NCBI GenBank assembly: GCA_021793945.1
Contig: JAJYRT010000013.1
Span: forward strand, 1-24,211
Direction of reading: 5' to 3'
DNA: 24,211 nucleotides
Source: Thermoplasmata archaeon
Lineage (GTDB): Archaea; Thermoplasmatota; Thermoplasmata; Thermoplasmatales; Thermoplasmataceae
Part shown: piece after piece, positions 76 through 24,076 of the stretch
Layout: every line of letters starts with the position of its first letter
How positions within the stretch are numbered: the stretch's first letter is position 1
Made by a program: the position numbers and the translations under genes
The notes under the pieces: generated by a model
What the model was told of the DNA's origin: nothing
Databases searched by the model: none
The model's input: the letters and a program-made list of their open reading frames with translations, nothing else

Positions 76-102
76 TGATACAGCTTCACTGAAGCTGTAT
101 CA
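76..102 (-). terminator. perfect stem-loop across the archaellin stop codon
   Basis: Positions 76-87 and 91-102 are perfect inverted repeats (arm TGATACAGCTTC, 12 bp) around a 3-nt loop. The archaellin stop codon (88-86) lies inside the structure. No long U-run follows in the minus-strand direction, so this is not a classical intrinsic terminator. It may instead be an RNA-stabilising or partial-readthrough element between the highly expressed archaellin and the gene downstream. That function is inferred; the repeat itself is directly visible. Confidence 0.6.
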
Positions 103-865
103 CTCTCGTTGTGTACGCTATCGGCGATGTGAACGATATCGCTGCTGGTGCTCCTGTCTGTGGCGATACTTTGCCGCTGACCTGCTGGCCCTGGGCTATT
201 CCAGTTGTGACTGAAGTTGACCCGGCTTTTCCACCGAACACTGCAGACACATTGATGAGTATTGCTACCTCGTCACCTGGCTGCACTACCGGATAAGATC
301 CTGTGATCGACTTTGTTGAGTTCGTAACGCCGAGCAGAGCAAAGTGTGTTGATCCGTTTGTCGTACCGTTGATTGCACTGAAGTATGACAGGTTAAAGAC
401 ATTTGCTGTTCCCGTCAACGCAGAGTGGTATGCATTGTATGAGGCTTTGTGTACACCTGAGTCATTCACTGGACCGTACGTCAAAGAAGCACTAAAGCCC
501 TGGTAAGTCAGTGAAACAGTAACGTTTCCCATGTTTATTGGTGAGCTTCCCGCATTTGGCGTTACATATATTGCCATGTATTCAATTAGGCCTGCCTCTG
601 GAGTGGCGATATTACTGTCCTGTCCATAGATAGCCTGTATTCCCAATCCGCTCGCAACTTGCTGTGTGGTCTGTGACCCGGTTGTTTGGGCCCTCGTCTG
701 CAACTGTCCAGCCGTGTTGATGAGAACCGCTGCAGCGACTGCGGCAACAAGCACCATCGCGATAAACACGATCAGTGTTCCTATTCCCGTGTCTGCCTTG
801 CTGTTCACTTTCAGGCTGAACACCCTTTTGAGTCCCTTGACTCCTCTTATTATGGTTCTATTCAC
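86..865 (-). CDS. flaB: archaellin (archaeal flagellin, FlaB/ArlB type)
   Basis: Structural subunit of the archaellum filament, exported and assembled outside the membrane. The class III (type IV pilin-like) signal is clear: KADTG then [21 protein letters not shown], with predicted prepeptidase cleavage after G27, leaving a 232-residue mature protein. The hydrophobic stretch at residues 31-49 is the archaellin core helix. Seven N-X-S/T sequons (N114, N134, N158, N166, N170, N182, N205) lie in the outer domain, as expected for a glycosylated archaellin and an AglB substrate. The GTG start at 865 has a GAGGTG ribosome binding site 5 nt upstream and a TATA box further back. An in-frame GTG at 808 would give a more typical 8-residue prepeptide (see findings). 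The identification is firm; the exact start is less certain. Confidence 0.95.
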
Positions 866-6670: not shown

Positions 6671-9600
6671 ATGGAATTATCTTACAGGGACAGCTCTGCT
6701 GGGAATGGGGAATTTTTCAGGAAATATCCGGAAGTTGTGGTGCTCACAGTTCTGGTTGGATTTTACCTGTTCCTTGCAAATTATTTCGCTTGGTCAGTAA
6801 CTTTTCAGGGTGGATTCTTCACAACCTCTGGTGGAAGTGATCCTTATTACAACTGGATCAATGTTCTGCATGTTATACAAACCGGACACTGGCTGAGCTT
6901 CGACCCGACACTCAACTACCCTGTGGGAACCGTGAACCCTAGGACACCGTTTTTCCATCTGCTTGTGGTTTTCATAGCTGTGGTTATGTCTCCATTCATG
7001 AATATAACGAGCGCTGCTCTTCTTACATTTGAGGAACTTGATGCATTTTTTGGAGCCCTTCTCATAATACCCGTATACCTGATCGGAAAGGAGGTATTTG
7101 GAAAGAAGGGGGGGATGGTTGCTGCTCTCCTGTACACCCTCATGCCAAGCAACATCAGTGCAGGTTACCTTTCTGATGGAAGGATACACACGCCCGAACT
7201 GATCTTTGTGCTTTTTGCAATATATTTCTTTGAAAGAACAATAGTAACAATGAACAAGGGAAAGATCGTGGATAAATTGTATCCACCAACCAGGATCTTA
7301 TCCTCGATTTACAATTACTACAAGCAAAACCGACTCGCAACCATATACGCACTCTTCGCAGGCGCTTCATTGGGGGCACTGATGCTGTCATGGCAGGGTT
7401 ATGCCTATGCCGTGGTTATCCTGCTGCTCTATGTTTTAATTCAGTATATCATCAACCTTTTCCTCAAGAGACCCAGTGATTATCTTGTGTATGCTACCGC
7501 GATTACGGTATTGTTTGGATTCTTCCTCGGAGCTTATTATTATATCGGAATCGGGAACTATTCTACATGGTTCACTCCAGTCCTTCTGCTGAGCATCCTT
7601 GTCATATTTATGGGATTCGTGTTCATGGCCATCAGGAGCAGGCCCTGGATCATCTCTGTTCCCGTTATTGCCATACTCGGAGCTGCTCTTCTTGCTGCGC
7701 TTGCCATATTCGACAAGTCAAGCTTCAATACCCTGATCAGCGGTGATGGCTATTTCATAAAGACAAGGGTATATCAGACAATAGCGGAAGCCGCTTCACT
7801 CCCTCTTGGACAGTATATTTCGGGCTTTGGTGTCTTCGAATTCGTTCTGGGTATGGGAGGGATAGCCTATGCCATATACATGTATTTCAAGGAGAAGAAG
7901 GATGCGATGTTTTTCGTCCTGGTGTTTTCCCTTGTTTCAATATACATGAGCTTCGAGGCCGCAAGGTTCAACATAACTGCCGCACCGGCATATGCAATAC
8001 TTGGCGCCGGACTTCTGATGTATTTCGCTCACCTTGTAAAGCTCTATGATCTGAAAAAGAGAAGCGGAGCTCCATCTGCCAGCGTCAGGAAGGCTATCAA
8101 GGGCAACATAAGCTGGGTCCACATCGTGTTTGTATTCATTATAGTGGCGCTGCTTATCGTTCCGTCCGGTCTTGGAGTAATATCCTCTTCCATACCCGTT
8201 AACAATGCCGCAAAATATAACCAGGAAATTTATAATGCTGTCCCGGGCATACTGCAGCCGCCTAACTTCACCGCAAGCAGCCTTTACTACGTCGGTGCCA
8301 CAGGCAGCCTGATAGACAATAAATCGCAGCCACTTGCGCAATCCTTCGCATGGCTTTCCACCCAGGATTCGAAACAGCCAATCAATGACAAACCTGCGTA
8401 CGTTTCATGGTGGGATTACGGTTTCCAGGAACTGGAGCAGGGACTCCATCCCACGGTTGCCGATGACTTCCAGCAAGGATACCAGGTTGCTGGGCAGATC
8501 TTGCTGGCGCAAAATCAGAGCCAGATTTTAGCCCTTTTCATTGCGAGGACCATTGAAGTTGAGTACAACAAGTCTGCGAATGGTTTCACGCCAAGCGTCA
8601 ATAATGTCCTTACATATTACTTTGGATCGGCAGAGGCTTCATTCCTCGCAAAGATATATGTAAACCCGGAAGCGTATAGCTCCCTGATACTGAAAAATCC
8701 ATCCATCTATGGGCAATATATAAACAGCATCGGGCCGACAAATGCATATTTTGCCTTAATCAAGGGCCAACTTGCCTCGAAATATTCCATGAATACCCTC
8801 GTTAATGCCTATTCCGCACTTGAACAGGTGACGGGATATTCAATAAAGTACATACAGGCAGATCACACCCTCTTCCCATCTTCGGTGAACAATACCGGTA
8901 CATTCTATGCTCCCGCCTACCTTACAGATACCCCGTCATACTCAACCGCAGGAGGTGGCGTTGTTCCGACCGCTTTCTATAATGTCATAGTTGACACAAC
9001 AAATGGCACTTACACCCTGCAGAACACCCCCACTTCAGCCACTGTCACAAATGAATACCTGCAGTACACTTCAGCCTTCTATAATTCCACGATTTATCGC
9101 CTCCAGATAGGATTCCCGGGGAGCGCCGTCGGCGTTACCAATGGAATACCAGGTCTAGCTAGCGGCACGTCAAACCTCACTGTAATGCCCGCCTGGAACA
9201 TGAGCAACTTCGAGATTGTCTATGAACTGATTCCGTGGAATCCATATACCAATTATGCTGCTCATCCCGGTGCGTGGCAGGATATCCCACTGCAGCAGGC
9301 TTACACCTACTTGAGGGAGGGCATCGGAACCGCTGTGATTTTCCCGTCAACTTCTCAGATGCTTGGAAGCAGCGATCCCATAGTTGCATATTATCCAGGC
9401 GCAATAATCACTGGCAGGGTTACAAACCCAAGCGGGCTTCCGGTTGGTGGTGTCAATGTCACAGTTTACGACCAGTACGGAATACCACACAGTGTGGTAC
9501 ATACCAACGCCAACGGATATTACAATATAACTGCTGTACCAGGCAACGATACCGTGGTATTCAGCACGGGTTCCATGAACCCGCTTTATCTCTATGGAAA

Positions 9601-12600
9601 GAACATACTAAAGGAACAGTCCGTTTATGTGTCGAACCAGCAGGCGGAGAGACTGTCGCTGTCAGTGAATTCGACCACGGGAATGCCTAACTATTATATT
9701 CAGGATAACTACCAGGTAAAGAGCTCACAGATATCCGGTACAGCGTTCATGGAATACCAGAATGTCCCGTTCGCGAATGCGTCCAAACCTGGGCAGTTTA
9801 ACGCGAAGAAGATACAGACCGGCACTGTTTTCCTCACAAATTCAACATACAATACAAACCTGTCAATACCCATTGTGAATGGCGCTTACATCCTGAATAA
9901 CATCCAGCCCTACAACTATCAGGAATCTCTGCTTGTGAACGGAACATATTATCCGAATATACTTCAGGCAAACATCACCATAGGAGGAAACCTTGTCTAC
10001 GATGCCACCGTCTACTTTGACAGTATCTTCGTCAACACATCCTCTGCTCCCGGGTTATCCCCTGGCTACACCGTAAAAGCAGTGGACGGTTCGACAGTAT
10101 ATTCGAACGTAACCAATGCTGCAGGACACGCTACCTTATGGGTACAGCCCGGAACCTACTCCGTATACGCCATGAAGGGAAGCTCACAGACTAACACTGC
10201 CAGCATAACGTTCTCTAACTGGGGAAAGAATTCAACCACAAACCTGTCTGCATCTCTTAGCGGAACTGTCTCGGGAAAGATCTTTAATGCCAACCCCGGA
10301 ACTACTGTGTACCTGTATCCAGACGGGCAGATATCCAGTGCGTATAAGACGTTGCTGAACACCAATGACGAATTCTCCATAAACGTGCCATATGGGATTT
10401 ACACACTATATGCATCCAGCGGTAACTATTCTGTCGCCAAGACTGTTAACGTTGAATCGAATACCTCCGTGAACGCGGTCATGAGCCTCTCCTATCCATT
10501 GACTGTCTCTGCATCCCTGCCAGGAGTTTCTGCTTACAGCGGCTACTATGAGATAATGAGCAACTCCACTCTTCTCAAGTATTCGTATTCATCTCCCGGT
10601 CCGTACACCATAATGTTGCCTGTAGGCTTTTATGGAATAGCGTCCGCTGTAACATACCTGGGAAATTTCCAGGTGGGATTCCAGAATATTTATCTGGTTT
10701 CAACAAGGAGCATAGCACCGGATCTGACGTACGCTAACCAGGAAACGGTGTTTCTGCACGAATCATCGAGCACAGGACCTCACATAGGATCTGGCGTTTC
10801 CGTTCTTTACTCATCGGGTCATCCTGTTTATTTTGGAACCGTAAGCTCCGGAACTGCCACGCTTTATTATACAAACCAGAGCAAACCAGACCTCAGTATG
10901 TATTCAATGAGCGCACTGTATACGTCCTCCACTGTCCAGATCACTGGAAGCACGCTGAATTATTCCATGACACCGATGGTTATCAATGCTACATTTTCAC
11001 TGGTAAACCAGGGGACGAGCCTAAATGGCAATGTCAACCTGACCCTGACCGGAACCAATACATACTTTCTGTCAGGGAATGAGAAGGCAATATCTACCGA
11101 TGTGGTGCCCGGAATATATTTGGCTTCGGCCAGCAACGGAACCTCGTCCCTGAAGTTCTCCGAACCGGTAATTGTCATTCCAAACGTCCCGGCTCAGCAT
11201 TTCTACATCAATTCAACACCCCTGGCCACGCTGAAAGTAAATGCAACAAACTACGTGGTATTCAATTCCACAGGGAACCCCATCAACGCAAGCGCCCCCC
11301 TACCTTTTGGAAACTATCTGGTATATACATACTCTAATGTTTCCGGGAATGCAAAAGCTTCCTGGAACCTGTATTCCCTGATCGCAAACAGGGTCGTTAC
11401 CCCTGTGAACGTTTCCGCAAGATCTATAACCTTGAAGAATTCGCTTGGCGTGAGCGGCGGCCACTATGAAATAACTGTCAACGGCACTCCAGCTAATCTG
11501 TCCTCAAGCCCTGTTTACCTTCCAACGGGAAGTTACAGTATTCATTATTATAACACCGTTGTAAATTCAACCGGGTCTTACATCATCTCAGGTAGCGGAA
11601 CGATTTCAGCAAGCACAACAAATTCGTTCACGGTAAGTGTAACATCAACGCCCGTAACCACCGTGCTTACTGGAATAGTATCCTACCATGGCCAGAAAAT
11701 GGAAAATACGGTCATCGAAATTATGTCATCCTCCGGTACATTCCTTGCGAAAACTACTACTAATTCATTTAACTATTACAAGATCAGCCTTCCAACGGGG
11801 ACATGGGAAATTTACGCCCTTAACAATGCAACAGGAACCGGATATTTCGGTGGTGTTACCATACCTGCGTTCAGCGGAACTTACTATGACAACATAAGCC
11901 TGGTGAATGCATACGCCACCTCGGTAGCAGTTACGGTGGGGTCCAGATCCATGAACACAAACGTGATGATTACTGAATACCCGAATAACATTGCCTATAA
12001 CTCGTCGGAAGCATCCATTCTTCTGCCTCAGGGTAACTATTCATTCTATGCAAGTGTCACCCAGACAATGACCGCGTTCAACGGTACGGTGCTAACAGTT
12101 ACTTACAGCGAAAACGACACGTTGGACATTAACTCGGCTCAATCCGTCACCCTGGCTCTATCCCAGCAGGTGACTGGAAGTGTAGTCATTAGCCAGGGGA
12201 AACATTATCCATCCCTCAGCACTGGACTTGATCTTACTAACAGTACAGTTGTGGAGTTCAACGTCACAAACCAACAGAATGTGTACAATGACGTGACCCT
12301 GAGTTCAGGCAGCCCGTCATGGAAAATAATGTTCAATGAAACCATGTTTGGGCTAGCTCCGGGACAAACCAGAAGTGTCAATGCCACCGTGTATGCTATG
12401 GACAACCCGCAGGCTGGAGTTGACGCCATCCCCATAAACATGAGCTATTCATCGTCTACCTCTTCTGGCATAGTCAACATTGATGTTGTACAGAGGCTCT
12501 CTTTCTCCAGTCATGTAAATTCCATTTTCGGAACTCCACAAGGAAGCAATCTCGTCTATATGGTTACCCTTACCAATACAGGGAATGCTCCGATTACAGT

Positions 12601-13003
12601 GACCGGGCAGATTAACAGTTCTGCAACGAATGCAAGGGATTATGGCTGGAATGCTACGCTCGTTTACAATGGAAAGGCAGCAGGAAAAATAACAATACCA
12701 TACGCCAAGTCACTGACCGTTGAAATAGTGCTTTCCCCAACAACACAAGCCTTTGCTCCAGGTGCTACGATTAGTGCAAATTTCAACGCCACAATTAATG
12801 GAAGCACAGTGAATGAACCCATCTCCTTTACCATGGAGTACCCCTATGCCAGCATCACTCCGTCACCCAGTGGAAACGGAATTATAGCGAATTACACAGG
12901 AGATGCCCTTTCAACACTGATAACGGGAATAATAATCATTGCCGTAACAGTCGCGGGAGGATTGTTCATTGCATCATATAGAGGAAGGAGGTTCCGTAGA
13001 TGA
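6671..13003 (+). CDS. aglB: giant AglB/STT3 oligosaccharyltransferase with extracellular beta-module tail
   Basis: Transfers lipid-linked glycan to Asn of N-X-S/T sequons on the outer membrane face. Residues ~19-503 hold about 13 membrane helices and the catalytic loop motifs: GGSDPYYNW (D57), SDGRIHTPE (D169), and the TIxE motif TIAE at 370-373. The soluble domain starts near 505 with the catalytic WWDYG at 580-584. Typical archaeal enzymes end at 600-1000 residues; this one reaches 2110. A carboxypeptidase-regulatory-like module (GRVTNPSGLPVGGVNVTVYD) begins near 914. Eight degenerate P-x-G-x-Y/W modules lie between ~1155 and 1800. An Ig-like stretch (YMVTLTNTGNAPITVTG) precedes a C-terminal helix (LITGIIIIAVTVAGGLFIA) and a basic tail. 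The tail is full of sequons. The stop overlaps the next gene's ATG by 4 nt (ATGA). I could not place the DK motif with confidence. Confidence 0.93.
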   Translation: MELSYRDSSAGNGEFFRKYPEVVVLTVLVGFYLFLANYFAWSVTFQGGFFTTSGGSDPYYNWINVLHVIQTGHWLSFDPTLNYPVGTVNPRTPFFHLLVVFIAVVMSPFMNITSAALLTFEELDAFFGALLIIPVYLIGKEVFGKKGGMVAALLYTLMPSNISAGYLSDGRIHTPELIFVLFAIYFFERTIVTMNKGKIVDKLYPPTRILSSIYNYYKQNRLATIYALFAGASLGALMLSWQGYAYAVVILLLYVLIQYIINLFLKRPSDYLVYATAITVLFGFFLGAYYYIGIGNYSTWFTPVLLLSILVIFMGFVFMAIRSRPWIISVPVIAILGAALLAALAIFDKSSFNTLISGDGYFIKTRVYQTIAEAASLPLGQYISGFGVFEFVLGMGGIAYAIYMYFKEKKDAMFFVLVFSLVSIYMSFEAARFNITAAPAYAILGAGLLMYFAHLVKLYDLKKRSGAPSASVRKAIKGNISWVHIVFVFIIVALLIVPSGLGVISSSIPVNNAAKYNQEIYNAVPGILQPPNFTASSLYYVGATGSLIDNKSQPLAQSFAWLSTQDSKQPINDKPAYVSWWDYGFQELEQGLHPTVADDFQQGYQVAGQILLAQNQSQILALFIARTIEVEYNKSANGFTPSVNNVLTYYFGSAEASFLAKIYVNPEAYSSLILKNPSIYGQYINSIGPTNAYFALIKGQLASKYSMNTLVNAYSALEQVTGYSIKYIQADHTLFPSSVNNTGTFYAPAYLTDTPSYSTAGGGVVPTAFYNVIVDTTNGTYTLQNTPTSATVTNEYLQYTSAFYNSTIYRLQIGFPGSAVGVTNGIPGLASGTSNLTVMPAWNMSNFEIVYELIPWNPYTNYAAHPGAWQDIPLQQAYTYLREGIGTAVIFPSTSQMLGSSDPIVAYYPGAIITGRVTNPSGLPVGGVNVTVYDQYGIPHSVVHTNANGYYNITAVPGNDTVVFSTGSMNPLYLYGKNILKEQSVYVSNQQAERLSLSVNSTTGMPNYYIQDNYQVKSSQISGTAFMEYQNVPFANASKPGQFNAKKIQTGTVFLTNSTYNTNLSIPIVNGAYILNNIQPYNYQESLLVNGTYYPNILQANITIGGNLVYDATVYFDSIFVNTSSAPGLSPGYTVKAVDGSTVYSNVTNAAGHATLWVQPGTYSVYAMKGSSQTNTASITFSNWGKNSTTNLSASLSGTVSGKIFNANPGTTVYLYPDGQISSAYKTLLNTNDEFSINVPYGIYTLYASSGNYSVAKTVNVESNTSVNAVMSLSYPLTVSASLPGVSAYSGYYEIMSNSTLLKYSYSSPGPYTIMLPVGFYGIASAVTYLGNFQVGFQNIYLVSTRSIAPDLTYANQETVFLHESSSTGPHIGSGVSVLYSSGHPVYFGTVSSGTATLYYTNQSKPDLSMYSMSALYTSSTVQITGSTLNYSMTPMVINATFSLVNQGTSLNGNVNLTLTGTNTYFLSGNEKAISTDVVPGIYLASASNGTSSLKFSEPVIVIPNVPAQHFYINSTPLATLKVNATNYVVFNSTGNPINASAPLPFGNYLVYTYSNVSGNAKASWNLYSLIANRVVTPVNVSARSITLKNSLGVSGGHYEITVNGTPANLSSSPVYLPTGSYSIHYYNTVVNSTGSYIISGSGTISASTTNSFTVSVTSTPVTTVLTGIVSYHGQKMENTVIEIMSSSGTFLAKTTTNSFNYYKISLPTGTWEIYALNNATGTGYFGGVTIPAFSGTYYDNISLVNAYATSVAVTVGSRSMNTNVMITEYPNNIAYNSSEASILLPQGNYSFYASVTQTMTAFNGTVLTVTYSENDTLDINSAQSVTLALSQQVTGSVVISQGKHYPSLSTGLDLTNSTVVEFNVTNQQNVYNDVTLSSGSPSWKIMFNETMFGLAPGQTRSVNATVYAMDNPQAGVDAIPINMSYSSSTSSGIVNIDVVQRLSFSSHVNSIFGTPQGSNLVYMVTLTNTGNAPITVTGQINSSATNARDYGWNATLVYNGKAAGKITIPYAKSLTVEIVLSPTTQAFAPGATISANFNATINGSTVNEPISFTMEYPYASITPSPSGNGIIANYTGDALSTLITGIIIIAVTVAGGLFIASYRGRRFRR
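10140..12070 (+). repeat. eight degenerate PxGxY beta-modules within AglB
   Basis: The translated tail carries recurring short units, each a proline-glycine turn followed by Y/W and a strand: QPGTYSVYA, PYGIYTLYA, PVGFYGIAS, VPGIYLASA, PFGNYLVYT, PTGSYSIHY, PTGTWEIYA and PQGNYSFYA. Starts are near residues 1159, 1239, 1316, 1478, 1544, 1617, 1707 and 1785, so spacing is about 65-160 residues. They resemble PEGA or carboxypeptidase-regulatory-like folds. Conservation is at protein level only; I see no DNA-level repeat. Confidence 0.65.
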
Positions 13004-13770
13004 ACAAGTTACTCGCCATATTGATAATCGCAATCATGGCGTTGCCCGCCATTGCAATGGTATCTGCTGCGTCTCCAATTCCGATAGTCGACAATGTTTC
13101 AGTCACCATCCCCAGCAACGTATACACGGGACAGAGCTTCACCGTTTATGTGAACAATTCAGTAGGCTTCAGCAATTACACAACCGAGGCATACTTCTCA
13201 GGTGAAAACCTGACCGGATTCTCTCCGACAAGCACCTTCGAGAATTATGGAGGCAGCAACCCCTCAGCATCTTTCTCTGTAACTGCGCCGCTATCCCCGC
13301 AGACCATATACATTGCCGTTATAACCAGTGCTCTTTACCATGGGCAATATGTAAATTACTCCCATACCTTTGCTATCAACGTATACAACCCCATAACCCT
13401 CCGTGCAACCATAACAAATAGCCAGGCATTCGCCATAAACAACGTCGTGGTCTCCTTTGTGTTAAACGGGAATCTATACGGCACAAAGACCGTGAATCTC
13501 TCCGCAGATTCTTCCCAGGTTGTGTCTCTTGAACTCCTCAGTTCTGAACTCGGAACTGGATCATACACACTTATTGTTTCCGTAAACAACCCACTCATCA
13601 AGGTTAACGGCGGCACGCAAAGCGCATCGATCACATTTTACAACGGCACCCCCCCAAATTACGACTGGATTTACTATGTAGCTGCGGGCGTGTTCATCTT
13701 CATGGTGATACTGGTTCTTGGATCCGGAAGGAGACCCAACAGGCCGAGCAACCCAAAATGGAGAAGATAA
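13000..13770 (+). CDS. membrane-anchored surface glycoprotein coupled to aglB
   Basis: 256 residues. A signal peptide spans ~1-24 (LLAILIIAIMALPAIAMVSA). The outer part (~25-220) has two beta-sandwich-like segments: residues 27-128, and 129-212 with a CARDB-like pattern (LRATITNSQAFAINNVVVSFVLNG). One membrane helix follows at 222-241, then a basic cytoplasmic tail (GRRPNRPSNPKWRR). Seven N-X-S/T sequons are present (N32, N52, N59, N70, N119, N166, N215). The ATG overlaps the aglB stop by 4 nt, so the two are almost certainly co-transcribed and translationally coupled. I infer an accessory subunit of the oligosaccharyltransferase or a dedicated substrate/surface partner. No catalytic motif is seen and no named family is claimed. 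Confidence 0.8.
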   Translation: MNKLLAILIIAIMALPAIAMVSAASPIPIVDNVSVTIPSNVYTGQSFTVYVNNSVGFSNYTTEAYFSGENLTGFSPTSTFENYGGSNPSASFSVTAPLSPQTIYIAVITSALYHGQYVNYSHTFAINVYNPITLRATITNSQAFAINNVVVSFVLNGNLYGTKTVNLSADSSQVVSLELLSSELGTGSYTLIVSVNNPLIKVNGGTQSASITFYNGTPPNYDWIYYVAAGVFIFMVILVLGSGRRPNRPSNPKWRR

Positions 13771-17638: not shown

Positions 17639-18301
17639 ATGGGTCGGATAGGCATATTTACCCAGGACTTCAAGTTTTACCACGATGTTATTTACCGCCT
17701 CAAGGAATGGGATCTCCCGTTCGTGAGCATTGAGGATCCTGGACAGGTACCGGAAGACGTTTCAGTTGTCTTGAGCGCTGGCAGTGATGATCTGCTGCCA
17801 AGACAGATCAGGTCAAACAACCCTGTCAAGGCCATAAGAATGGCTCTCCCAAGGCTGTTGAACCGGTATGATTTCAACAGCGTGGTTATAGGCATTGACC
17901 CGGGGCCACGACCAGGACTTGCCGTGACGGCCGACAGGATTCTGACTGAGGCTTACGAATGCCCTGACACGCTATCAGTGGGAAAGGAAGTACAGGACAT
18001 TGCCGACTTCTATTCTTACAAGAGCATCTCTATAAAGATTGGAAATGGAGACGGCCCCAACAGGAAGGAAATAATAGACCACCTGGAAAAGACAAAAATA
18101 GGTATTACAATAGTCGATGAGACCAATACAAGCATGCCACACAAGATACACGATAACGCCCTGTCAGCCGCACGAATCGCATTCATCGAGGGAAATAATT
18201 ACCCACTTGCTGTGCCGAAGAAATTCAACCGCAAGGACGTTTACGATAAGGAATTTGTGACAATAAGGAAACTAGCTCTTTCCGGAAGAGGGAATTCCTG
18301 A
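17639..18301 (+). CDS. YqgF/RuvC-like RNase H-fold protein (predicted nuclease)
   Basis: 220 residues. Residues ~1-78 are an N-terminal domain of unknown fold (MGRIGIFTQDFKFYHDVIYRL...). From ~80 the chain follows the YqgF/RuvC plan: strand with first acid VVIGIDPGPRPGLAV (D87), a middle turn IKIGNGDGPNRKEIIDHL (D138) like the YqgF G-L-P-x-x-D-G region, then ITIVDETNTSMPHKIHDNALSAARIAF, where V-D-E-x-x-T/S (D160, E161) and the helix D-N-A-x-S-A-A (D172) match YqgF and the last RuvC acid. I infer a metal-dependent nucleic-acid nuclease: Holliday-junction resolvase, RNA processing, or an inactive relative. Its 3' end overlaps the convergent thiI by 30 nt. The fold call is fairly good; the substrate is unknown. 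Confidence 0.65.
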   Translation: MGRIGIFTQDFKFYHDVIYRLKEWDLPFVSIEDPGQVPEDVSVVLSAGSDDLLPRQIRSNNPVKAIRMALPRLLNRYDFNSVVIGIDPGPRPGLAVTADRILTEAYECPDTLSVGKEVQDIADFYSYKSISIKIGNGDGPNRKEIIDHLEKTKIGITIVDETNTSMPHKIHDNALSAARIAFIEGNNYPLAVPKKFNRKDVYDKEFVTIRKLALSGRGNS

Positions 18302-20524: not shown

Positions 20525-23500
20525 GTGAATAACAGGAATCGAGTGTTTTTTGCGTTGTTGATAGCTGTACTTTTTATGGCCTCCGCCTTTGTCTTTGTGG
20601 ATCAGGGCCAGGCTGCCGCTGCTTCAACGCATTGGGGATACAAGACGTCCGCAGGCATGGAACCGCTGGTCAGCGTCCAGAATTCATCCCTGAATCAACT
20701 GGCCTCAACGGCGGGTACATACACGTTGATGGATGAACAGAGCCACTTTAACCCATCCGCAATAGTGATTGTAACCATCAGCCTGAAAACCGGATCGGGA
20801 TTTGGCAACCTGATTAACGCTGTTTCAAACCCGGCTTCAATGCAATACAGGCAGTACGTATCGACAGGGGAACTTGGGAACCAGTATGGGATCAGCACAT
20901 CTGCCTATAACGGAATAATCAGCTACTTCGAAGGATTTGGCATAACTGTGTACACCAGCAGCGCAAGAATTTCGCTCACCCTGCAGGGTACAGTGCAGGA
21001 GTACGAGGAGGCTTTCCACACACAGATAGGGGCGTATGCAATCGAATACACTAGCAATGGCATATGGAACCCGCTGTTTGGAAATGAAAGCGGAACACCA
21101 GGATCGGTTTCTGTTTCACCAATAATATATGTTGACACAAGTGGATTGGATCTACCTGCCTCCATAGCACAGTATGTCTCAGGTATCACCGGTCTGGACG
21201 GCATGGTTGCCCAGCCCGACGTAATGCTTCCATTCGGAATGAATCCATCGATGGTCACGGTCGGCTCGTCTTACATAACTGGCGGGAATGCCCAGTTCCC
21301 GATATATACTGGAAACAATGCATCCTACCCACTGGGTAACGCGAGCAATCCGTACACAATAGACCAGATACAGAACATATCTTATGCTAACTTCACCTGG
21401 ACGCCAAATAGCCTGACCCCAACTGATGCTGCTTTCAACGATCCCTCCGGGAATTACCAGTTCATATACCCCAGCACAATGCACGTACTCACGGGAGCCA
21501 GCAACCTCTGGAGCGGCCGGAGCACAATTGGAGGTGCCCCTGACCTTGGCCAGGGCATAACTGTCGCAGTTATTGAGGTGGGTACTCTTCCGCTGTCATG
21601 GCTGCAGGGATTCTCACAGGAGGTTTTCAACAATCCTAACCAGATCACCGATCGACTCAGCGTTGTTCCACTGCTTGGAGCAAACCTGTTTGATGGGGAG
21701 ATTTACGGTTGGACCCTGGAAACTGCACTTGACATAGAGTACATTGCTGCAATGGCACCAGCTGCACACATAGACCTGGTGGCTGTTCCGAACCCGAACT
21801 TCTCAGCCTTTGACTACGCCTACCAGTACATTGCGCAGAACCTTGTCAGCGGAAACAACGCTACGGATTCCATAACAATAACCAGCAATTCATACGGAAG
21901 TGACGAGGCATATACGGCATTCTTCGGATCCCCAACCTATATGCAGGTGGAGAACACTCTGCTGACCGAACTCAACCTTGTTGGAGTAACGAATTTCTTT
22001 GCAACGGGAGACTACGGATCATACGCAGGGCTTTATGAATATGGAGCAACGAGCGCAGGCATCCCTGCCATAGCCAACGGATCGACCAGTGTCGGTGGTG
22101 GACAGTTGACTGCTGAAAGCGCAGGACAGGCTTTTCCAGATACAAACGTATGGGCATACTACCCTGAGTACGGAATAATGATGCAGGTAGCACCGGCATC
22201 CGGAGAACAGTCATTCACTTACTGGGCTTACGGTGAGGGTTTAAGCGGGACCTTCAAGGGAATAATTGGAGGAGGCTTCGGGCAATCCCTTATGACACAG
22301 CAGCCCTGGTGGCAAAACGCCCTGGATACCTACACATCCGGAGCAAGAATGGATCCTGTCGTAAGCGGAGCAGCAGCTTTCAACATGTCAGTATACACAG
22401 GTTTCTGGAACCTCTTCTATGGCGGCACTTCATTTGCAACACCGATAACAGCAGGTGAATGGGCGCTCATTGAGGAGCAGGCTAACATAATACTAGGCAC
22501 TCCAGCTCTGGGTGACATAAACCCTGTCCTGTATGGAGCACATAATGCATACGAAGCTGGAATTTCATCGTTCCACTACAATCCATACCTGCTGATGCAG
22601 AACATTGGATCTGGATTCAACTATGGTCCTACAAACAGTTTTGCCTGGTACTACTTCAATCTCAGCATTGCAGTCCCATCGGATCCAATAGTGCCCTGGT
22701 GGATGTTCTCGCTTGAAAGCCCGGCCGGAAACGGTTGGAACTACCTGCAGGGACTCGGCATGATCCGGGCAGACGTCATGGATCAGGAGCTGCTTGGGCT
22801 TGTCGACTCAGCAGGGCATGCGCTGCTGAACGAGGAATTCACTGTCCTGATGGCTACTCCATCCGGCCTTGAGCCCATAACGACACTAACGGGAGGGCAG
22901 ACGTACACATTCCAGATTCTTCTTGCAAACGGCCAGGCAGGAGGGCTTTACAAGGTATACGCGTACTCCGGTGGCCCAAATAACGGCGCATATGGAGGGG
23001 GGACGGTTTCCACTTTTACAACCAGCAGCAACGGCGAGTTCACTTACACGCCAGCTTACAACATGAACTCGCCTTCGATTGCGGGATCTGAGTACGGCTA
23101 CTTCAAGATACTTTCACAGGGAAGCATCCAGTGGTCATTCCAGCAGTTTGCTGTAAGCTCGCCCGCGGCAACGGGAACGCTGACACTCGGAGTCACCAAT
23201 GCCATGGGTATGCTTGAAACCGGAATTGCAGAGGTGCCAATGTTCATTGATACACAGACGGGATTTTACAACTATCTAGGAGCCACAGGGGAAGTGTTCC
23301 TGAACGGAAACCCTGTTAGCAATGCAGTTGTGCACCAGATTTCTGTGAACAATACCCAGTTCTCGCAGGAGTTCAGCGGATTGCCTGTGTCGAGCTATGC
23401 TCCCGGGGTTGAACTCGGCACCTTTTTGACAGACGGAAGGGGAATGTTCAATTTCTGGACGGATGCTGGTCTTGCGGAACTGAATGCCTCACTTTTCACG

Positions 23501-24076
23501 CAGGTAGACACCCTGTATGCCACATACAACGGTCTTACAAGCAATGCTGTTACAGTTTTCGTTGAACCTCAGACAGGGAGCTTCTATGCTAACGTAGCAA
23601 TGGGATCCGGAGGAACGCTGACTGGACAGGTGACCTTCAGCGACATGAAGTACGTGAATTACGTGAACGTATCCATCGGATCAGCGCCGGGACAGTACAT
23701 AAATGAAACTTTTGCACCCTCATTTGTGGATTCCACAACAGGAGTCGGGGTAAGCGGAGTCTTCAATGGCGTGATCCCTGTAACGTTTACGACAAAGGGA
23801 ATTTCCGGGCCGGTTGAACTGCATATGGTTGCCGGAGGATACAATGACCTGAGCCTTAAGTACAGCTTCTTCGGGTTCTCATTCGTGTCCTACTCCATAC
23901 AGAATCCCATAGTATGGTCTGATCCAATAAGCATCGGATCCGCAGTACAGGGCAACTCTCATGCAGTTCCTGCCTCCACTCTCCCAGGAGCAGCAGTGTT
24001 GGCAGCAATAGCAGGCAGCATTGGCTCAGCGGGAGCAGCAGTAGCATACGTGTCAGTTATAAAAAAGAGGAAGTAA
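20525..24076 (+). CDS. large membrane-anchored sedolisin (S53) acid protease
   Basis: 1183 residues. A signal peptide (~1-34) is followed by a pro-kumamolisin activation domain (~74-170: SNPASMQYRQYVSTGELGNQYG ... EEYEEAFHTQIGAY-type pattern). The catalytic domain begins near 335. S53 residues: E399 and D403 in TLETALDIEY, oxyanion D496 in FFATGDYGS, and nucleophile S636 in GGTSFATP. The rest (~700-1150) is beta-rich with many sequons (WSFQQFAVSSP, LTLGVTNAMGMLETG). It ends in one helix (LPGAAVLAAIAGSIGSAGAA ...) and KKRK, anchoring the enzyme outside the cell. Active sedolisins work at low pH, fitting an acidophile that digests external protein. The full catalytic set suggests activity; the usual C-terminal calcium site was not located with confidence. 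GTG start with strong SD. Confidence 0.92.
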   Translation: MNNRNRVFFALLIAVLFMASAFVFVDQGQAAAASTHWGYKTSAGMEPLVSVQNSSLNQLASTAGTYTLMDEQSHFNPSAIVIVTISLKTGSGFGNLINAVSNPASMQYRQYVSTGELGNQYGISTSAYNGIISYFEGFGITVYTSSARISLTLQGTVQEYEEAFHTQIGAYAIEYTSNGIWNPLFGNESGTPGSVSVSPIIYVDTSGLDLPASIAQYVSGITGLDGMVAQPDVMLPFGMNPSMVTVGSSYITGGNAQFPIYTGNNASYPLGNASNPYTIDQIQNISYANFTWTPNSLTPTDAAFNDPSGNYQFIYPSTMHVLTGASNLWSGRSTIGGAPDLGQGITVAVIEVGTLPLSWLQGFSQEVFNNPNQITDRLSVVPLLGANLFDGEIYGWTLETALDIEYIAAMAPAAHIDLVAVPNPNFSAFDYAYQYIAQNLVSGNNATDSITITSNSYGSDEAYTAFFGSPTYMQVENTLLTELNLVGVTNFFATGDYGSYAGLYEYGATSAGIPAIANGSTSVGGGQLTAESAGQAFPDTNVWAYYPEYGIMMQVAPASGEQSFTYWAYGEGLSGTFKGIIGGGFGQSLMTQQPWWQNALDTYTSGARMDPVVSGAAAFNMSVYTGFWNLFYGGTSFATPITAGEWALIEEQANIILGTPALGDINPVLYGAHNAYEAGISSFHYNPYLLMQNIGSGFNYGPTNSFAWYYFNLSIAVPSDPIVPWWMFSLESPAGNGWNYLQGLGMIRADVMDQELLGLVDSAGHALLNEEFTVLMATPSGLEPITTLTGGQTYTFQILLANGQAGGLYKVYAYSGGPNNGAYGGGTVSTFTTSSNGEFTYTPAYNMNSPSIAGSEYGYFKILSQGSIQWSFQQFAVSSPAATGTLTLGVTNAMGMLETGIAEVPMFIDTQTGFYNYLGATGEVFLNGNPVSNAVVHQISVNNTQFSQEFSGLPVSSYAPGVELGTFLTDGRGMFNFWTDAGLAELNASLFTQVDTLYATYNGLTSNAVTVFVEPQTGSFYANVAMGSGGTLTGQVTFSDMKYVNYVNVSIGSAPGQYINETFAPSFVDSTTGVGVSGVFNGVIPVTFTTKGISGPVELHMVAGGYNDLSLKYSFFGFSFVSYSIQNPIVWSDPISIGSAVQGNSHAVPASTLPGAAVLAAIAGSIGSAGAAVAYVSVIKKRK

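Follow-up and report, generated by a model that had tools for sequence, protein, structure and literature searches.

A predicted two-anchored beta-module extension of the oligosaccharyltransferase AglB, and its paired membrane-partner gene, in Thermoplasmatota archaea

The oligosaccharyltransferase AglB and a small neighboring gene occupy the center of a stretch of 24,211 nucleotides from a Thermoplasmata archaeon of the family Thermoplasmataceae (assembly GCA_021793945.1, contig JAJYRT010000013.1, positions 1 to 24,211 of the forward strand); we call the whole stretch the window. The aglB gene encodes an STT3/AglB oligosaccharyltransferase (OST) in a single open reading frame, as an earlier, sequence-only reading of the window had held, and its stop codon overlaps the start of a gene for a membrane protein, here termed the partner and passed over in that reading (Table 1). 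We regard it as virtually certain, from sequence comparison and structural models, that this AglB has a two-anchored architecture and that its gene is paired with that of the partner.

Table 1. Features of the window discussed in the text, with positions in nucleotides and AglB subdivisions in residues.
Feature	Position	Strand	Description
aglB	6671..13003	+	2,110-aa oligosaccharyltransferase, one frame
AglB residues 1-904	6671..9382	+	membrane domain and WWDYG core; WWDYG codons 8408-8422
AglB residues 905-1014	9383..9712	+	carboxypeptidase-regulatory-like module within the span superposed on Archaeoglobus AglB, not extra; basis: PF13620 match and end residues of the structural alignment
AglB residues 1015-1832	9713..12166	+	extension: predicted beta-module chain with eight family-conserved PxGxY marks; borders approximate
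AglB residues 1833-2058	12167..12844	+	two predicted distal Ig-like domains; borders approximate
AglB residues 2079-2103	12905..12979	+	predicted C-terminal transmembrane helix, then basic end
ATGA	13000..13003	+	overlap of aglB stop with partner-gene start
Partner gene	13000..13770	+	256 aa: N-terminal hydrophobic segment, CARDB-like ectodomain, transmembrane segment 221-245, basic tail with PKW
Archaellin gene	86..865	-	259 aa
w17639	17639..18301	+	220 aa; without Pfam match
Pro-kumamolisin-like gene	20525..24076	+	1,183 aa

PF02516 matches AglB residues 56-495 with 28.8 bits, above its cut-off of 24.5, and PF13620 matches with 55.7 bits against a cut-off of 32.3, in three stretches of which 913-971 is the best. 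The score against TIGR04154, the STT3 of the archaeosortase A system, is 176.4 bits, below the >450 bits by which that family is defined; across 294 scanned genomes from the phylum, a relative of this family appears in 289 and only 4 exceed its curated cut-off. We aligned the query with 43 sequences chosen from 120 listed relatives, excluding partial entries and reaching down to 36% identity. D57, T370, I371, E373, W580, D582, Y583, and G584 are present in all 44 sequences and W581 in 43; of the complete catalytic unit recognized at first sight, D57, TI-x-E, and WWDYG are thus essentially invariant. Transfer of glycan to N-x-S/T is the predicted activity of the window AglB. Position 169 is Asp in 37 sequences and Gly in 7, H173 is present in all 44, and the second supposed metal-binding motif (D169) is wholly different in four genes (L047, L048, L056, and L062); the metal ligands in this AglB group may need to be reassigned.

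An AlphaFold2 model of residues 1-1200, made with family alignments, has a mean predicted local distance difference test (pLDDT) score of 85.1 and a predicted template-modeling (pTM) score of 0.74, and its top PDB match (Foldseek, VIA-align) is Archaeoglobus fulgidus AglB-L (AfAglB). In the structural alignment, for which the first and last aligned residues are given, residues 6-872 of the 7e9s chain superpose on model residues 13-1018. Because of this superposition, the first regulatory-like module (913-971) belongs to the standard AglB fold, and the extension starts near residue 1015; it spans about 1,095 residues (~1015-2110), where the sequence-only reading had counted some 1200 extra residues and included that module among them. 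AfAglB (3waj, 5gmy, 7e9s) ends at residue 868 and, unlike the window AglB, has neither further modules nor a C-terminal membrane helix.

The model of residues 905-2104 (mean pLDDT 84.6, pTM 0.49) is all beta, followed by a weak linker at about 2059-2077 and a helix at 2079-2103, in agreement with the extracellular beta-module tail and second membrane anchor proposed earlier. Its 96 strands of at least 3 residues would suffice for about a dozen beta modules. The description of eight PxGxY modules is a fair one: the tail of the query has 6 copies of the strict pattern P.G.[YFW] (mean 0.5 and maximum 5 in shuffles), and the looser PxGx[YFW]/PGx[YFW] lies at eight tail positions (1163, 1244, 1321, 1483, 1549, 1622, 1712, and 1790) in at least 15 of the 44 members. 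Across the 44 sequences the extra-module stretch measures 1,012-1,055 residues. The NxGN...W pattern of the distal immunoglobulin-like (Ig-like) domains recurs in the consensus of deeper lineages, and Foldseek and VIA-align searches with the whole tail gave generic beta-module matches. Sequence and modeling together show a predicted architecture in which an ordinary AglB fold reaches to about residue 1014, some dozen beta modules follow outside the cell, and a helix and basic end close the chain at the C terminus, so that the extension would be membrane-anchored at both ends.

Long AglBs of this kind are spread throughout the order. Among the 120 relatives listed, of 142 in total, 116 have 2,045-2,161 aa, 97-100% query coverage, and 37-94% identity, and the other four (P0088, P0105, P0106, and P0120) are shorter. 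Entries from Thermoplasma, Cuniculiplasma, Oxyplasma, and Ferroplasma, of about 2,050-2,120 aa (2,113 aa in Oxyplasma, P0022; 2,076 aa in T. volcanium), hold the same gene, extension, and anchor, under names that, where given, reflect catalysis or a domain. A match is present in 107 of 117 genomes of the order, with a frame reaching 2,000 aa or more (2,026-2,134) in 85 and a shorter one in 22. Three of the short ones are Acidiplasma-type genes (L034, L035, and L037) of 1,433-1,454 aa, 608-629 residues fewer than the 2,062 of Ferroplasma. They align until window residue ~1196-1276 and restart at ~1917-1925, the middle being lost, and retain the modules nearest the core, the final Ig-like domain, and the C-terminal anchor, also by a profile check; L034 has an additional weak match of 70-odd residues between its two aligned ends. 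Eleven more are contig ends or frame-breaks by sequence (G004, G005, G198, G322, G331, G339, G344, G347, G356, G358, and G365), several of them matched to their locus by frame length and coordinates, and the remaining eight were assessed by coordinates only (G301, G308, G311, G314, G315, G319, G327, and G367). No close relative without the tail was found, the examined short candidates being contig ends or frame-breaks, and no examined gene of the order offers the counterexample that the sequence-only reading had named, a homologue without the tail and ending near residue 900. A search with profile A7 for a separate tail gene in ten genomes, also proposed in that reading, returned AglB only, save one weak match (G088, a 915-aa frame), and a pattern search of viral contigs returned no match.

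Two observations concern individual assemblies. In some of them aglB is frame-broken (L059, L036, L122, and L123), with the remainder present in other frames. The Cuniculiplasma metagenome-assembled genome KMA_Bin18 has two distinct AglB genes, L041 and L048, with 51% and 35% identity to that of the window; these are either paralogues or the product of a mixed bin.

Such tails are not confined to the organism of the window or to its order; frames of 2,000-3,300 aa are frequent in the phylum. In 145 listed genomes, taking the longest AglB frame of each and bearing in mind that some short frames are cut at contig ends, we counted 6 frames below 1,100 aa, 55 of 1,100-1,450 aa, 3 of 1,450-2,000 aa, 69 of 2,000-2,650 aa, and 12 above 2,650 aa. 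The C-terminal anchor was checked in 60 fetched genes and 15 earlier ones: a hydrophobic C-terminal stretch is present in every 3'-complete gene of at least 2,041 aa and in both Acidiplasma-type genes of the set, and genes of 926-1,432 aa are without it. In hhalign comparisons, the tail profiles of lineages outside the order match those of the order at E 1.2e-73 over 1,072 columns and 3e-59 over 1,046, alignments in which register shifts among repeats are possible. Because these tails align over nearly their full length, the extension predates the order, and the comparison shows it to be, at the level of sequence, collinear across lineages. Aspartate plus glutamate (D+E) make up 2.3% to 20.6% of tails outside the order (L102 20.6%, L107 17.3%), a range that hints that some of these lineages are not acidophiles.

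Other forms of the gene occur alongside. AglB frames of 3,145-3,324 aa, with still longer extensions and without an adjacent partner, were seen in G098, G107, G128, G149, G197, G215, G219, G244, G264, and G272, and AglBs of 1,170-1,432 aa that lack both the C-terminal anchor and a neighboring partner gene in L101, L103, L110, L117, L163, and L165-L169, with a post-core stretch of ~300-550 aa in those measured. L118, one of the unanchored genes of 926-1,432 aa, groups on the tree with anchored genes longer than 3,000 aa, possibly as a broken copy.

PF07705 (CARDB) scores 20.2 bits on the window partner, against a cut-off of 22.7, and matches 41 of 45 partners at E <= 1 (best 7.2e-11). Near the membrane, the consensus contains PPNYxWIYY and a PKW motif whose conservation is 90% or more; hhalign of the partner with the C-terminal end of AglB gives probabilities of 74% and 85%, which would make the partner a possible duplicate of that end. 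Among 131 loci searched with a partner profile, the gene lies directly downstream of aglB in 89, some of which are near-identical or overlapping records, and overlaps it by 4 bases in 73 of these. AglB is cut at a contig end in 11 further loci, 2 are unjudgeable, and 29 have no partner; one of the 29 is a broken gene whose partner is seen by tblastn (L059) and another has just 269 bases remaining (L048). By AglB length in the 145 genomes, the partner is adjacent in 53 of 69 at 2,000-2,650 aa, 0 of 55 at 1,100-1,450 aa, 0 of 3 at 1,450-2,000 aa, and 0 of 6 below 1,100 aa. Nonadjacent matches occur in five genomes, in two of which (G273 and G129) AglB is cut at a contig end. On a tree of 70 core sequences, a quick build with a chosen outgroup and with long-branch and composition warnings, all 42 partner carriers form one group (Shimodaira-Hasegawa-like approximate likelihood-ratio test 86) nested in a wider anchored set, which requires one change. 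Given that outgroup, the predicted order of events begins with the anchored extension; the partner would have been gained once, later, with no loss in the sample. Separately, partner-profile matches that cross one stop codon were noted in G043, G102, G123, G132, G153, G195, G230, G231, G235, and G251.

The two anchors, the kept ends, the near-constant length, and the membrane partner with its coupled gene point to a scaffold next to the catalytic site. We tentatively propose that AglB and the partner would be produced together and assemble into a joint complex, in which the extension would arch above the membrane alongside the catalytic site and the partner would touch its anchored end; the arch might hold and position surface proteins while they emerge, and might itself carry glycans. 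This joint complex and scaffold is our best reading, at somewhat less than even odds; we lowered our confidence slightly because other neighbors of aglB are also common in the order.

Several points weigh against it. In tblastn searches of 71 order loci, 62 contain the partner, always downstream and on the same strand; w17639 has matches in 61 (59 of 61 on the opposite strand), the PheT-like w2027 and w15532 in 49 each, and w1662 in 48; the gene directly upstream of aglB is matched in 18. Because the whole neighborhood is fairly conserved, the presence of the partner says little by itself within the order; with another neighbor at 61 of 71 loci, the argument leans on the strand, the overlap, and the persistence of the partner beyond the order. 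Further, the partner adjoins none of the 12 AglBs above 2,650 aa and is absent from 13 of 55 anchored tree rows with sufficient downstream sequence. The link between anchor and partner is a single event (independent-pairs test, 2-3 pairs, p = 1), and since the partner was gained in one event, correlation tests have no power. Six loci outside the main group that the partner profile found had been used in building it. The partner ectodomain shows no sequon excess (7 against 4.7 expected), and with a pTM of 0.49 the overall shape of the tail is not predicted. The middle modules are dispensable in Acidiplasma-type genes, and because these have lost the middle, so is the full length of the extension. 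The tie between AglB and partner is one of gene linkage, and the complex is putative. On the other side stand 19 loci, 18 outside the order and one (L146) inside: plain tblastn detects the partner in 7 of them and w17639, the next downstream gene of the order, in L146 alone, and a profile search finds the partner in all 19. By these counts the partner, as a predicted gene, outlasts regional synteny.

The proposed complex bears on how archaeal OSTs are viewed. Accessible parts of two papers call the enzyme single-subunit (PMC8342417, PMC3703281), a comparison of species, as excerpted, gives AglB 754 to 1,054 aa (PMC5131992), and the available portions of Thermoplasmatales papers give AglB merely as present (PMC5155288, PMC3750248, PMC10354927). 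Our literature search, from which subscription papers were mostly missing, found no description of the extension or the partner; the long genes are already in databases, and the pairing with the partner was not found in print.

Known systems offer partial parallels. NOMO, a subunit of the BOS translocon, consists of consecutive carboxypeptidase-regulatory-like modules and a C-terminal membrane helix and is not known to be fused to STT3. It is the top PDB sequence match for three AglB tail profiles (E 1.8e-6, 7e-26, and 1.9e-29). A control profile of eight non-AglB archaeal module proteins also has NOMO2 at the top, at E 6.9e-23, a second control, built from four proteins, reached 0.0079, and checks with single sequences told nothing either way. 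Because that control reaches 6.9e-23, the match is largely generic to modules; we retain NOMO as a likeness only, any kinship beyond the modules being conjectural. Eukaryotic OST accessory subunits may be likened, as an idea, to the partner, itself a small membrane protein with a beta ectodomain beside STT3; no eukaryotic OST accessory family appears among the 25 listed of 63 Pfam families matched by 45 partner sequences. It is a doubtful but serious suggestion that archaeal OST is not always single-subunit, that a large Thermoplasmatota clade may have a two-protein machine of AglB with a two-anchored beta scaffold and a CARDB-like partner, and that this machine would parallel the use of separate lumenal beta-module subunits by eukaryotic OST and translocon. 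The conserved, translation-coupled neighbor makes the single-subunit view directly testable in cultured species.

An alternative sees in the extension a self-glycosylated shield or regulator, whose glycans would protect or tune the enzyme in acid and whose exact fold would matter little. The very many sequons remarked on earlier are real: residues 905-2070 hold 45 N-x-S/T motifs, where 2,000 composition-preserving shuffles average 26.7 +/- 4.3 and none reaches that number, and 44 tails hold 2,542 forward motifs against 1,408 reversed. Their positions mostly shift and their density holds at 3.8-7.4 per 100 residues, as a shield would allow. In the same test, the pro-kumamolisin-like protein of the window has 15 against 13.9, and none of the cytosolic genes tested exceeds chance. 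The tail is likely glycosylated, to judge from these counts. Haloferax AglB and eukaryotic STT3 are N-glycosylated, according to the accessible part of PMC8241124. The sequon excess behind the earlier idea of a self-glycosylating enzyme therefore stands; its novelty does not, because N-glycosylated AglB is known in Haloferax. Near-constant length and collinear modules, however, exceed the needs of a glycan brush, the few conserved tail sequons (959 in 97% and 1057 in 87% of 39 relatives) suit structural sites, and the forward excess extends to the core (473 versus 213) and the membrane part (166 versus 95). We consider a shield unlikely.

The extension may instead be mainly structural, a glycan-coated arch within the unordered exterior protein layer of wall-less cells; a surface-layer or stalk role had been raised in the sequence-only reading and is possible. 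If each beta module measures about 4 nm, a dozen of them, anchored at both ends, could reach ~20 nm. Sequon excess, 6.8% charged residues, and the absence of cysteine from the extension would also suit a surface layer. The available text of a cryo-tomography study reports no lattice in two Thermoplasmatales species and, on Cuniculiplasma and Oxyplasma, an unordered exterior layer of ~20 nm and unknown identity; its main text, as far as accessible, does not mention AglB, STT3, or oligosaccharyltransferase (PMC12448462). Oxyplasma has this AglB, and the two-anchored protein is a concrete candidate for the 20-nm layer on Thermoplasmatales cells. Against such a role, it would demand an enzyme at coat-level abundance, over half of the extension is gone in Acidiplasma-type genes, and long tails occur outside the order too, some of them rich in acidic residues (L102 and L107). 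Picrophilus has a surface layer (S-layer). We judge the structural role quite unlikely as the main function.

The extension could also be a passive spacer of common surface modules, without a particular role and kept by inertia. The module family is frequent (3-41 matches per genome in each of 20 genomes), and conservation in the middle is low (0.31-0.46 per 50-residue block from ~1101 to 2050). A spacer would hardly explain an extension kept far outside the order, its end fixed and its length nearly so, or the coupled neighbor gene in the window's clade, and we find it improbable. An assembly or annotation artefact joining two genes, the outcome set in advance as fatal to the sequence-only reading, has a negligible chance and was rejected on the 116 full-length relatives and 85 order genomes given above: the same gene stands in many independent genomes, and the examined broken copies are frame-breaks or contig ends.

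Three other genes of the window deserve mention. Homologues of w17639 lie 0.8-3.5 kilobases downstream of AglB, on the opposite strand in 59 of the 71 loci and on the same strand in L127 and L128. The pro-kumamolisin-like protein matches in Pfam the pro-kumamolisin activation domain only, with no protease domain matched. The archaellin holds 8 sequons, against 3.0 +/- 1.5 in shuffles.

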